From positions 1-29,760 of the IMG/VR virus record IMGVR_UViG_3300034022_002171: a DNA stretch of 29,760 nucleotides; one strand, written 5' to 3'. The notes below the pieces were generated by a model. The model was not told the origin of the DNA, searched no databases, and was given only the letters and a program-made list of their open reading frames with translations. The stretch is from a virus. Shown in pieces: positions 25,365 to 29,760 of this stretch. Both the position numbers and the translations under genes were made by a program. Positions within the stretch are counted from its first letter, which is position 1, and each line of letters opens with the position of its first letter.

Positions 25365-25532
25365 ATGCGCTTTTTCTTCGGAGATAATGAAGACAACTTC
25401 GTCCTGATCCCCACGGTCATCGTGCAGCTCGGGCGCTGCCAAGGGTGCGGCAAAGTGGCAGGGATCTGCCTTTTGCTTTCATGGCTCAACATTGAAGTCG
25501 GCCTCGAAATTCCCTTCAATCATCATGACTGA
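25365..25532 (+). CDS. Small 55-residue phage protein before the terminase
   Basis: The start ATG 25365 follows a C-rich leader (CTTTCTCCCCACTC). The product has a C-G-R-C-Q-G-C-G-like cysteine cluster (C-Q-G-C) and a hydrophobic end (I-C-L-L-L-S-W-L-N-I-E-V-G-L-E-I). Short proteins of this general style occur near lysis and terminase genes of many phages. Its stop overlaps the small terminase start (ATGACTGA), which supports it being real. Confidence 0.65.
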   Translation: MRFFFGDNEDNFVLIPTVIVQLGRCQGCGKVAGICLLLSWLNIEVGLEIPFNHHD

Positions 25533-26208
25533 CACCACCCCCTCGCGCTCCAAAATCGGCGCATTGCCGCACCGCCTTCGCGAGCAGGTAAACCACCGCC
25601 TTCTCGACGGCCAGGTCGATTCTGAAATCCTGCCATGGCTCAATGAAATGCCCGTGGTCCAGGAGCGCATGAAAGCCCGCTTCAATGGCGAGCCCATCAG
25701 CAGCATGAACCTCAGCGCCTGGCGCACCGGCCAGTATCAAATCTGGATCGTTGAGCGCAAGGAAATCGCCGCCACCAAAGAACTCGCGGAGTTCTCCGAA
25801 GGCCTCGCTGAAGCCGCAGGCGGCAACATGAGTGCCGGTGCCAAAGCCATCGCCACCGGGCGCATCATGCAGCGGCTGCAAAGCATGGGAGAGGGCACGG
25901 ATCTCGAAGCCCTGCTCGACACCGTGAAGGCCATCAAGGATCTGCACAAAGGCGACATCGACGCCCAGAAAATCGGCCTTGAACGCACCAAAGTGGGGCA
26001 GGCAGAGCGCCAGCTCGTTTTGGCTGAAGACAAATTCCGCCTTGAGACCGCCGGTTTGATCCTGCAGCACATCGCCGACGCCGAAGTACAGCGCATCGCC
26101 GCCAGCAAGGAAAGCCAGCCGGTGAAGATGGATCAGCTCATTCTCCATATCTGGGGCAAACGCCCCGACCAACCCGCCGCCCTGAACTCCAAGGGACCGC
26201 CACCTTAA
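25525..26208 (+). CDS. Small terminase-like protein (DUF3486 type)
   Basis: A 227-residue protein. The N-terminal HTH-like region (S-K-I-G-A-L-P-H-R-L-R-E-Q-V-N-H-R-L-L-D-G at about 8-28, then N-L-S-A-W-R-T-G-Q-Y) has the pattern of the DUF3486 family, the Mu-type small terminase subunit. A long helical section follows (A-K-A-I-A-T-G-R-I-M-Q-R-L-Q-S-M-G, then D-K-F-R-L-E-T-A-G-L-I-L-Q-H-I). It recognises phage DNA and starts packaging. It is followed by the 26214-26290 inverted repeat and then the large terminase. Confidence 0.83.
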   Translation: MTDTTPSRSKIGALPHRLREQVNHRLLDGQVDSEILPWLNEMPVVQERMKARFNGEPISSMNLSAWRTGQYQIWIVERKEIAATKELAEFSEGLAEAAGGNMSAGAKAIATGRIMQRLQSMGEGTDLEALLDTVKAIKDLHKGDIDAQKIGLERTKVGQAERQLVLAEDKFRLETAGLILQHIADAEVQRIAASKESQPVKMDQLILHIWGKRPDQPAALNSKGPPP

Positions 26209-26213
26209 AACTT

Positions 26214-26290
26214 CAGCGCTGAGGTAGGGCCGGGAGTGATCCCGCCCGGGGTCGTGTGTGGCTCTTCATTGGTCGTGTACCTCAGCGCTG
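26214..26290. repeat. Perfect 13-bp inverted repeat between terminase genes
   Basis: CAGCGCTGAGGTA at 26214-26226 and TACCTCAGCGCTG at 26278-26290 are exact reverse complements, 51 bases apart. Between them lies a smaller hairpin CGGGA-GTGA-TCCCG and a C/G-rich stretch. The outer arms contain the self-complementary CAGCGCTG. It occupies almost the whole 95-base gap between the small and large terminase genes. It may be a terminator-like RNA structure, a DNA signal for packaging, or a small mobile or regulatory element. Confidence 0.75.
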
Positions 26291-26303
26291 CTTAATCTTT
26301 GAC

Positions 26304-27251
26304 ATGTCCGCCGAGATTCCAGCTCCTTTGATCGCCCTCCGCAAATACGCGGAAGATCCCTTCTGGAATGACACGGATGGCATGCAGTTCTGGCTCTGGC
26401 GCCGGCAGGCCGGTAAATCGTTTACGGCCGCCAACAAAGCCCTCCGCCGCATGATGGAAGTCCCGGGCCTGAGCAGCTTCTTTGTTTCCGCTTCCGTCTC
26501 CCTGGGCACCGAGTTTGTCCGCAAAGAATCCGAGGTCTGGACCAAAGTCCTCAGTGAAATGAAACGCCGCGCCAAAGAGGCTGGTCAGGAACTGCACACC
26601 TACGCCCAGGACAAAGGCAAGCTGCTCGAATTTGACCACACAGACATCGACACCCTGAGCGAAATCTTTGAGGCCCAGAAGCTCGAAACCCGCATCTATC
26701 ACGACCGCACGACGTACAGCCGTAGCCGTGTGATCGCCCCAAACCCAGACACCGCCGTTGGCTGGACCGGTGACATCTGGCTCGATGAAGTCGGGCGCAT
26801 GCCCATGTTTAAAGAGGTGCTGGAAGCCGTGCTGCCGTTCATGAGCAGCAACAAAATCTTCCGCCTTCTCGCCATCACAACGCCACCTCCGGAGGATGAT
26901 CATTACTCCTGGGAACTCTTCGCCCCGACCGCAGGCCAGGAGTTTCGCCCCAACGAACGCGGCAACTACTACATCAGCCAGGCCGGATACAAAGTACACC
27001 GCGTGGACGCCTGGGACGCCGCCGCCGCCGGGATCTCGATGTACGATGACATCACTCGTCTGCCTTTGAGCCCCGAAGAGCACCGCGCCAAAGCCTACGA
27101 CAAACAAGCCTGGGACCGCAACTTCGCCCTGAAATTCATCACCGGCGGTCAGGCGGCCGTCAGCCTGAACGACATCAACCGCGCCATGACCGATCCCCGC
27201 GCCGGGGTGGCTTTGGACATCACTGAAAGGCTTGTCGCGATACCGTCATGA
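26304..27251 (+). CDS. Large terminase, ATPase half (split gene)
   Basis: The 315-residue protein has the terminase motor core: Walker A-like R-R-Q-A-G-K-S at 33-39, Walker B D-I-W-L-D-E-V-G at 157-164, and a coupling motif L-A-I-T-T-P-P at 189-195. It ends shortly after V-S-L-N-D-I-N-R-A-M at about 288-297, just where the linker to the nuclease domain should be. The RNase H-like nuclease is encoded by a separate downstream gene. Full-length Mu-type large terminases are about 550 residues, so this is half. Its TGA overlaps the 56-residue insert gene (ATGA). It powers DNA packaging. Confidence 0.88.
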   Translation: MSAEIPAPLIALRKYAEDPFWNDTDGMQFWLWRRQAGKSFTAANKALRRMMEVPGLSSFFVSASVSLGTEFVRKESEVWTKVLSEMKRRAKEAGQELHTYAQDKGKLLEFDHTDIDTLSEIFEAQKLETRIYHDRTTYSRSRVIAPNPDTAVGWTGDIWLDEVGRMPMFKEVLEAVLPFMSSNKIFRLLAITTPPPEDDHYSWELFAPTAGQEFRPNERGNYYISQAGYKVHRVDAWDAAAAGISMYDDITRLPLSPEEHRAKAYDKQAWDRNFALKFITGGQAAVSLNDINRAMTDPRAGVALDITERLVAIPS

Positions 27252-27418
27252 AAGCAGCACGCACAATTTTAAACAGGGTCGAAGTCAATGAAGCCCTCCT
27301 CACTTACACGGTTCAAAACCCTGAGGATACTGACCGGCGGCTATCCATCATTGAAGATAATCTTAATGAACTAGAGCGGAGCCTCCGCCGCCTGCAGAGT
27401 GCCAAACGCAAACCGTGA
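27248..27418 (+). CDS. 56-residue gene inserted between the terminase halves
   Basis: An open frame too short for typical gene calling but strongly supported by context: its ATG overlaps the ATPase stop (ATGA), and its TGA overlaps the nuclease GTG start (GTGA). The product is charged and helical, with R-R-L-S-I-I-E-D-N-L-N-E-L-E-R-S-L-R-R-L heptads suggesting a coiled coil. Codons such as ATT, TTA, CTA and AAT make it more AT-rich than its neighbours, hinting at later acquisition. Family unknown; a bridge between the two terminase parts is an attractive guess. Confidence 0.75.
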   Translation: MKAARTILNRVEVNEALLTYTVQNPEDTDRRLSIIEDNLNELERSLRRLQSAKRKP

Positions 27419-28131
27419 ACGACTTCCTCTCCATCCGCGATGCCTTTCCAGCCTCCGTCCTCGACTTCCTGCAGGACGGAGAGCTGACCCTTGGCATCGA
27501 CTTGGGCACGACGGAGAACAAGAAGAGCAATCCCACGGCCTTCGCCCTGCTCGAAAAGATCGGCCTGAAGCGCTACATGCGTCTGGCTGCCCGCTTTAAA
27601 ACGGGCCAGCGGGACGTGATTGAGGGCGTGATCGTCCGCCTTTTGGACCTGCTCGATCGCCGCGAGCGAAAGCTCCGCGTTATCATCATGGACGCCAGCA
27701 ACGAGCGTCTGACCGCCGGGGACATCGCCCAGGATCTGAGCGGACGCGTCTCCATGCGTGCCGCCGTGCTCAGCACCACGCGCATTGTTTATGGCGAAAA
27801 AGTCAGCCTCAAAACCTACATTTCCAGCCTCGTTGTCACCCATTTGGAAGACGGGCGGCTGATCCTGCCCCCCGCTGAATGGATCAAAAAGGACTTCCGC
27901 CAGATCATTCGTGAGAAAGGCGGCTTCAACGCTGCCGTGGCTGAAGACGGCGCGCACGCTGACCTTTTCTGTGCCACCGGTCTGGCTCTGGATGGTTTCG
28001 ACACCGATGGCCCCATCGAAGCCGCCGGCGTCTCCACCTCAGACCTCGGACGCCGTGCCGATGATGACGACGAAGCCGAAGACGCCCGCGAAGGCCTCGG
28101 AGCCTGGCTGAACCGCATGCTCGGCTGCTAA
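27415..28131 (+). CDS. Large terminase, nuclease half (RNase H-like)
   Basis: The 238-residue protein begins with a GTG that overlaps the previous stop. The RNase H-like core has L-G-I-D-L-G-T-T-E-N-K-K-S at 26-38 with D29, V-I-I-M-D-A-S-N-E-R at 89-98 with D93, and E-D-G-A-H-A-D-L-F near 177-185 with D178/D183 as candidates for the last metal ligand. This is the headful-type nuclease that cuts phage and flanking host DNA in Mu-type packaging. The acidic section D-D-D-D-E-A-E-D near the end precedes a short basic/aromatic tail. It has no in-frame continuity with the ATPase half (a TGA lies upstream in its frame). Confidence 0.87.
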   Translation: MNDFLSIRDAFPASVLDFLQDGELTLGIDLGTTENKKSNPTAFALLEKIGLKRYMRLAARFKTGQRDVIEGVIVRLLDLLDRRERKLRVIIMDASNERLTAGDIAQDLSGRVSMRAAVLSTTRIVYGEKVSLKTYISSLVVTHLEDGRLILPPAEWIKKDFRQIIREKGGFNAAVAEDGAHADLFCATGLALDGFDTDGPIEAAGVSTSDLGRRADDDDEAEDAREGLGAWLNRMLGC

Positions 28132-28146
28132 CCTTTCCACACGACC

Positions 28147-29760
28147 ATGAACATTCCCTATCTCGACAAACTCTTCAGGCTTTTCCGCCCGAACCAGACC
28201 AAGACCACCGGCGCCGTGGGCTTCAACGAAGAGGCTTTCACCGCCAATTCGATGACGGTGGACAAGCTCCATTCCATCCTCCGCGAGGCCGAAATGGGCA
28301 ATGTGGACCGCCTTTTTGCCCTTTATCGCGATATTTTGGGCGGTCATAGCCATCTGCAGAGCGAGTTCAACACCCGCAAACTGGCCGTGCTGGGAGATCC
28401 GATCTCCTTTGTCCCGCGTGACGAAAACCGCCCCGAAGACGTGCTGGCTGCCAAAGCCTGCGAGCGCCTCAAGAAATGCGACACCTGGGATCTGGGCCGC
28501 AACCATCTCCTGAACGGCACACTCTACCCGCTGGCCATCGTCGAGAAGATCTTCAAGCCCGCCGAACCCAACGAACTCGGACTCCGCTACGATCTTGCGG
28601 AGCTTTCGCCCGTCAAATATCAGGCCATCACCTTCCAAGACCGCGCCCGTCTGCAGCTCTGGGACTTCGACGAAGCCACCGGCATGCGCCTGGCCTGCAA
28701 GAGCACCCCTGAGCCTGAGCAGTTCATTATTCACCGTGGGCACCTTCTCACCATGCTGCCCGATTCATGGGGGGGGCCGCTCCGCGCCTGCCTCTTCTGG
28801 TGGCTTTTCAGCGTGATGGACCGCGACTGGTGGATTCGCTTTTTAGCCCGCTTTGGCACCCCTTTCATCGTCGGCAAATACAACAGCGCCAACGTGAAGG
28901 ACAAAAACACGCTGGTGAACGCCTTCTCCGCCGCCAGCCAGCTCTTTGCACTGGTCACGAATAGAGAGACCGAAATCGAGGTCCATAAAGTGGACAGCAG
29001 CTCTCACGGCGATGCCTTCCAGAAAATGCATGAGATCGCCAACCGCGAGATCAGCAAGCTCATTCTCGGGCAGACGATGACCAGCGAAGCCCAGTCTTCC
29101 GGCATTGGCGGGGCACAGGCCACGGTACACAATCAGGTGCGTGGCGATATCAAGCAGTTCGACGCCACCACTTTGGGCAAGACTCTCGAAGGCCAGCTCT
29201 GCAAGCAGTTCCTCGCCATCAACGGCCTGACCGGCAGCGTCAAGATCATCACCGGCAGCAGCGGACCTGAAGAAATCAAAGCTGCCGCCGAAGTGGTGAA
29301 AAGCGCCTCTGAATCCGGCCTGCAGCTCACCGATGCCGGGGTCCAGCAGTTCTCCGAGATCGCAGGCCTGCCCTTCCAGCGCGCCCCCATGCCCACCGCG
29401 CCCGCTTTGCCCTCCGGCCTGAGTGCAGACTTCTGGCCCACGCCAGCCTGGACGCGGCATCTCCGCCCCGCGACACCCCCGCAACCCCTCAGCGCCGGCG
29501 TCGCGGCACTCCCCGACTACCTGCCAACCGACGCCGAACTTGATTCCATCGCCGCCGCCGGCGCAGAGCCCCTGGCCGCCGCCTTTCGCGGCATCTATGC
29601 CCCCGTCCGCCAACTGATCCTCACCAGCTCCAGCCCCGCCGACCTCGAAGCCCGCCTCCGCCACTGGTACGCCGACCACAACCCCGAAGCCGCCGCCGAA
29701 CTCATCGCTGAAGCCCTGACCGCCTACGCCGCCAACGGCGCCGCTGCCGTTAGACGCTAG
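28147..29760 (+). CDS. Portal protein, Mu gp29-like (DUF935)
   Basis: The 537-residue protein is near the length of Mu gp29 (512). Features of the family include D-R-L-F-A-L-Y-R-D-I-L at about 54-64, H-L-Q-S-E-F-N-T-R-K-L-A-V near 72-84, F-W-W-L-F-S-V-M-D-R-D-W-W near 218-230 and the G-T-P-F-I-V-G-K-Y segment. The long middle helix around residues 285-330 (I-L-G-Q-T-M-T-S-E-A) is also typical. The dodecameric portal sits at the capsid vertex and binds the terminase. An eight-G run at 28769-28776 encodes W-G-G. The C-terminal ~100 residues are Ala/Pro-rich. It ends exactly at the window edge. Leader: CTTTCCACACGACC-ATG. Confidence 0.93.
   Translation: MNIPYLDKLFRLFRPNQTKTTGAVGFNEEAFTANSMTVDKLHSILREAEMGNVDRLFALYRDILGGHSHLQSEFNTRKLAVLGDPISFVPRDENRPEDVLAAKACERLKKCDTWDLGRNHLLNGTLYPLAIVEKIFKPAEPNELGLRYDLAELSPVKYQAITFQDRARLQLWDFDEATGMRLACKSTPEPEQFIIHRGHLLTMLPDSWGGPLRACLFWWLFSVMDRDWWIRFLARFGTPFIVGKYNSANVKDKNTLVNAFSAASQLFALVTNRETEIEVHKVDSSSHGDAFQKMHEIANREISKLILGQTMTSEAQSSGIGGAQATVHNQVRGDIKQFDATTLGKTLEGQLCKQFLAINGLTGSVKIITGSSGPEEIKAAAEVVKSASESGLQLTDAGVQQFSEIAGLPFQRAPMPTAPALPSGLSADFWPTPAWTRHLRPATPPQPLSAGVAALPDYLPTDAELDSIAAAGAEPLAAAFRGIYAPVRQLILTSSSPADLEARLRHWYADHNPEAAAELIAEALTAYAANGAAAVRR

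Follow-up and report, generated by a model that had tools for sequence, protein, structure and literature searches.

Separate genes for the ATPase and nuclease halves of the large terminase in a clade of verrucomicrobial Mu-like phages

The large terminase of a clade of Mu-like phages of Verrucomicrobiota is very probably a two-protein enzyme, in which the gene was split essentially once into an ATPase and a nuclease gene and the joint between them was later open to cargo genes, including a 56-codon open reading frame designated here as X. Comparison of sequences establishes the split, its conservation throughout the clade, the catalytic residues, a ribosome-binding site at the joint and the turnover of the cargo. 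The window, which is the whole 29,760-nucleotide (29.8 kb) stretch analysed, is an IMG/VR virus record with MuA- and MuB-like transposition genes. The gene set of a Mu-like transposable phage is present (phrog_310, phrog_296, Portal_Mu, a Mu-type protease and a major head protein), and the genes for the transposition proteins, protease, capsid, tape measure and portal are all open. The order at the right end is small terminase, ATPase, X, nuclease and portal, all on the plus strand. The terminase small subunit (25525..26208, start probably ATG) matches PHROG 426 (terminase small subunit, E 2.9e-6), and the ATPase half of the large subunit (26304..27251, 315 aa) matches Terminase_6N (E 1.3e-4) and PHROG 2 (E 2.5e-9). 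X (27248..27418, pI 9.5) lies between the halves, and is followed by the RNase H-like nuclease half (27415..28131, 238 aa, GTG start) and a Mu-type portal protein (DUF935; 28147..29760; Portal_Mu, E 5e-59), the final gene of the record. The portal seems to be the last or nearly the last phage gene at the prophage right end in the window and in L090, L097, L101 and L108, and host-type genes were seen by eye to begin between a few hundred bases and about 1 kb past it in prophages, the first of these in L101 being a Dam-like methylase. In the window and in three provirus records of Geminisphaera, the record stops at, or at most 3 nt from, the portal stop codon. In contrast to Mu, some 15 kb separate the head genes (protease and capsid) from the terminase downstream.

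Close-relative scans with the ATPase, nuclease or transposase as single queries gave no matches; the family was opened by an alignment of the portal, and a profile of the ATPase was next searched against about 1,150 genomes drawn from the host phylum and from two orders within it. All taxon-named genome loci from the portal alignment belonged to Verrucomicrobiota or the related Kiritimatiellota. After removal of duplicates, 59 distinct verrucomicrobial Mu-like terminase loci with both domains were retained, 29 of them fused and 30 split, and the split loci comprised 16 with nothing between the halves (L124 and L006 among them) and 14 with one or more genes there. Three split-type prophages are carried by the cultured Geminisphaera colitermitum TAV2. 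The loci come from prophage or metagenome records throughout, and some of these may be defective; those with a split are from many assemblies, isolates included. A tree built on both domains needs two changes for the split or fused state and shows a deep and diverse split clade; the reading with the fewest events would be essentially a single split, before the clade radiated, and a single re-fusion, in L168. The L168 terminase (genome G722) is one frame nested within the split clade, has the split-type tail AIDLAGQDV in its linker, and has neither a ribosome-binding site nor a start codon at the junction, and is an apparent natural re-fusion. The sister of the window ATPase is L124 (support 100/97), which is split and has no cargo. 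An earlier note on this DNA had named, as grounds for giving up its reading, relatives in which the small gene is absent and the terminase reads as one frame; the near relatives present the opposite, with the small gene absent and the split kept. Of the 67 Mu-like portal loci outside the clade that could be assessed, 66 are preceded by a frame of at least 400 codons, which by this length criterion only is as expected for a fused terminase, and the sole exception (L057) is truncated by the contig start. Domain shuffling or looser coupling after the split was considered and left no sign, the rank correlation between ATPase and nuclease identity being 0.66 in split and 0.55 in fused loci. Separate nuclease genes with no recognisable ATPase in the record or genome were observed at L112:3084-5441, L086:4833-5396 and L089:2632-3348, and in L112 a tape-measure-like gene is followed directly by the nuclease.

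Both halves were modelled because the sequence-family matches were only marginal, that to Terminase_6N included; the match to Terminase_6C (E 0.11) was below the cutoff. The AlphaFold model of the ATPase (pLDDT 84.6) matched the P74-26 ATPase domain (Z 19), residues 122-360 of T4 gp17 (Z 16.7) and other large terminase ATPases, and that of the nuclease (pLDDT 87.6) matched the G20c TerL nuclease (Z 17.2), residues 379-561 of T4 gp17 (Z 15.3) and the Sf6 and herpesvirus terminase nucleases. The model alignments map the break between T4 gp17 residues 360 and 379, which is the hinge. Walker A (QAGKS), Walker B (LDE) and motif III are all kept in the window ATPase, and the Walker A lysine, the Walker B aspartate and glutamate, and nuclease residues D29, E97, H181 and D183 are found in 30 of 30 split loci. 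The second protein is recognised as an RNase H-like nuclease with an acidic metal site from the G20c fold match and the conserved D29, E97 and D183, and the first as a TerL ATPase half from Terminase_6N, the P74-26 and T4 gp17 fold matches and the invariant residues; the single polypeptide with both domains that characterises TerL is replaced by two genes in different frames at all 30 split loci. Walker A is GKS in all 30 split ATPases and GKT in most fused relatives and serves as a lineage marker. In the nuclease motif DATNE, the aspartate four residues ahead of the invariant glutamate is leucine (ILATNER or VLATSER) in L091, L094 and L122. The window nuclease has a tree branch of 1.82, versus 0.63 for the window ATPase, and a best identity of 38%, and the window ATPase is 63% identical to that of L124; being far more divergent than the ATPase, this nuclease may have been exchanged at the joint or may be evolving fast.

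The overlaps at the joint are ATGA between ATPase and X and GTGA between X and nuclease (4 nt each), the three genes occupy frames 0, 2 and 1, and upstream the nuclease frame is closed at 27369. The genes, their overlaps and the upstream stop described in the earlier note are confirmed. In 27 of the 30 split loci the ATPase gene ends in ATGA or GTGA. In most split relatives the end of the ATPase gene also encodes a GGAGG/AGGAGGT ribosome-binding site, the split-type tail ITEEV or ITEAV being read in the DNA as GAGGAGGT or GGAGG. The summed anti-Shine-Dalgarno match at the ATPase end was 138, versus 92.6 +/- 10.5 for synonymous shuffles (0 of 2000, P < 1/2000) and 33 at random internal positions, and because it exceeds both, the ATPase end is seemingly shaped as a ribosome-binding site for the next gene. 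The ITE(E/A)(V/I) tail is absent from fused relatives, as is the site that it encodes in most split loci. In the window the ATPase C-terminal tail at this position (VALDITERLVAIPS, 27206..27251) has lost the site, and no Shine-Dalgarno match was found before X or before the nuclease. Gaps of more than 130 nt occur at the small terminase/ATPase joint in 9 of 27 split loci (L093, L100, L126, L180 and L181 are among those with large gaps) and at the nuclease/portal joint in 1 of 27; the idea that the ATPase/nuclease joint is an exclusive insertion slot was ruled out by the former, and the slot is frequent, not exclusive.

The genes between the halves are mostly different ones, and include a C5-cytosine methyltransferase (L007), an MT-A70 methyltransferase (L093), an N6/N4 methyltransferase with a second ORF (L180), a Gp49-like protein (L115), and small orphans (window, L087, L090/L097, L091, L094, L106, L122, L133 and L181). 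The three DNA methyltransferases are unrelated to one another, and the intervening genes in L007 and L180 are 1.2-2.1 kb. Cargo ORFs of 50-75 codons are each weak as gene predictions on their own. Each of the 17 cargo ORFs has a lower GC3 than either terminase gene, in one case by 0.001 only, and the presence of cargo changed at least 9 times within the split clade on the tree. A guess that the 231-aa cargo of L181 is a glycosyltransferase was unconfirmed by Pfam or PHROGs. In the unrelated Mu-like Faecalibacterium phage Mushu, an annotated DNA methyltransferase (L003:2312-2977) is located between an intact terminase and the portal. When relatives were searched for the three-gene arrangement of the window, the split proved to be clade-wide, but a gene between the halves was present in only 14 of 30.

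X has a GC3 of 0.51 versus 0.75 in the ATPase and nuclease genes, in agreement with the more AT-rich codon use noticed earlier. Under a Markov model that kept length and ends constant, the frame stayed open as far as the exact GTGA in 11.5% of cases, and on its own evidence X could be a chance ORF; it is likely to be a real gene because the other cargo-bearing relatives share the same anatomy. No homologues of X were found in phages, plasmids, viral contigs, 387 host-order genomes or the other cargo slots (the last search having no positive control), and its origin as a duplicated terminase fragment was rejected, there being no DNA similarity. The temperate-phage genes known as 'morons' share odd codon use, patchiness and varied functions with X and the other joint genes, and X is patchy in presence and unlike its surroundings in base composition (L124 without X, cargo in 14 of 30 loci, GC3 in 17 of 17 ORFs). 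Unlike morons, the slot here is between the halves of one motor and 4-nt overlaps take the place of an own promoter; a consensus scan for a promoter and terminator of X gave nothing above chance, with one promoter-like match only in 25400-28300, about the number due to chance. X is most likely an orphan cargo gene. Because 16 split loci have no gene between the halves and others have different genes, X is, as judged from the comparison of loci, not what caused the split, and not a general coupling protein either.

The earlier note had offered two interpretations of the small gene, and neither was supported, although the split itself was upheld as genuine. One was that a mobile element had been inserted and tidied up; neither an intron or ribozyme match (Rfam, E <= 1) nor convincing flanking repeats were found at the interruption, and most joints have an embedded ribosome-binding site. 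The other was a coupling protein, and a dedicated coupling or regulatory subunit bridging ATPase and nuclease is considered quite unlikely. The position of X, its exact overlaps on both sides and its small, basic product would suit such a role, and the unusual divergence of the window nuclease could reflect co-adaptation; however, more than half of the split relatives (16 of 30, including L124) have no such gene, no relative of X was found in the other cargo slots or any searched collection, and several cargos have unrelated enzyme functions.

The long nuclease branch and the lack of a Shine-Dalgarno match suggest that the terminase copy in the window could be diverging or decaying. That the split as such marks a decaying prophage or satellite with a dispensable nuclease seems very unlikely. 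The lost ribosome-binding site before X and the nuclease-bearing records with no recognisable ATPase (L086, L089, L112) are as decay would predict, but the catalytic residues are invariant in 30 of 30 split loci, the transposition, protease, capsid, tape measure and portal genes of the window are still open, and the split clade is deep and diverse.

Production of a minority fused terminase by ribosomal -1 frameshifting at the ATGA overlaps, with the fused form doing the work, is held to be highly improbable. In relatives with direct overlaps the nuclease is in the -1 frame, which in several is open for 140-960 nt upstream, and a frameshift fusion may occur in those where this frame extends far upstream. 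Against this, two -1 shifts are required for a single product in the window because the nuclease frame is closed at 27369, and X lies in between; genes of 1.2-2.1 kb intervene in L007 and L180, the Shine-Dalgarno sequence at most split joints is expected for initiation, and no slippery site was seen by eye on the junctions. That one gene is broken by a mistake in assembly or sequencing, or by the remnant of an intron or intein, can be practically dismissed: introns and inteins are both known in terminase genes (PMC11878797, PMC7156551), but there are 30 loci split at the domain boundary in many assemblies, isolates included, which bears out the earlier view that this is no sequencing frameshift, and the stop/start overlaps are conserved, Rfam gave no match, X (56 aa) matches no intein family, and neither an intein nor a typical group I intron would fit into 164 nt.

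The preferred reading is that the clade encodes its large terminase as two proteins. The ATPase motor would end at the hinge and the nuclease would be translated separately, from a start overlapping or shortly after the preceding gene. The Shine-Dalgarno sequence in the last ATPase codons would serve the next gene in most members; stop-start overlaps alone remain in the window, where translational coupling is assumed. The two proteins would most likely meet non-covalently at the portal, doing the job that one chain does in other phages. The single ancestral split would later have let genes settle in the joint, and X would have been gained as cargo on the branch of the window. We infer that both proteins assemble and package DNA and that X is dispensable for packaging.

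The two folds, the catalytic motifs and their order are those of T4 gp17, P74-26, G20c, D6E and Sf6, but T4 gp17 and other large subunits are one polypeptide, whereas here there are two genes, often with a third between them. The fused verrucomicrobial Mu-like terminases (L008, L113, L136 and others) are homologous throughout and likewise have small terminase and Mu-type portal neighbours, but are a single frame without the split-type tail. The large terminase gene is also interrupted in SIOphi (PMC11878797) and Mic1 (PMC7156551), where the mature product is one protein; here there is no splicing element and each part has its own start. In reviews, the two-domain chain is regarded as universal among tailed phages (PMC7824862), and the hinge as essential for translocation on the ground that gp17, once split, no longer pumps (PMC3012670, PMC9958956). 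When T4 gp17 was split at the linker, the ATPase and nuclease activities were kept and translocation was lost (PMC3012670). No published naturally split terminase was found in a literature search of open-licence papers.

Because the break matches the hinge where the T4 split abolished translocation, the clade would have to work without a covalent hinge or couple its parts non-covalently. By this analogy, either the interface between the domains would be stronger, or the ATPase ring would translocate on its own and the nuclease would act only in cutting. On balance, a natural two-polypeptide motor, stable in the clade and with no covalent hinge, is favoured, in which either the ATPase ring translocates alone and the nuclease is recruited to cut, or the two are coupled by surface contacts only. 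The clade keeps the domains separate, has apparently re-fused them once, and tolerates foreign genes in the hinge. These natural parts, including the fused L168, make the role of the nuclease domain as a covalent lever in DNA pumping directly testable.
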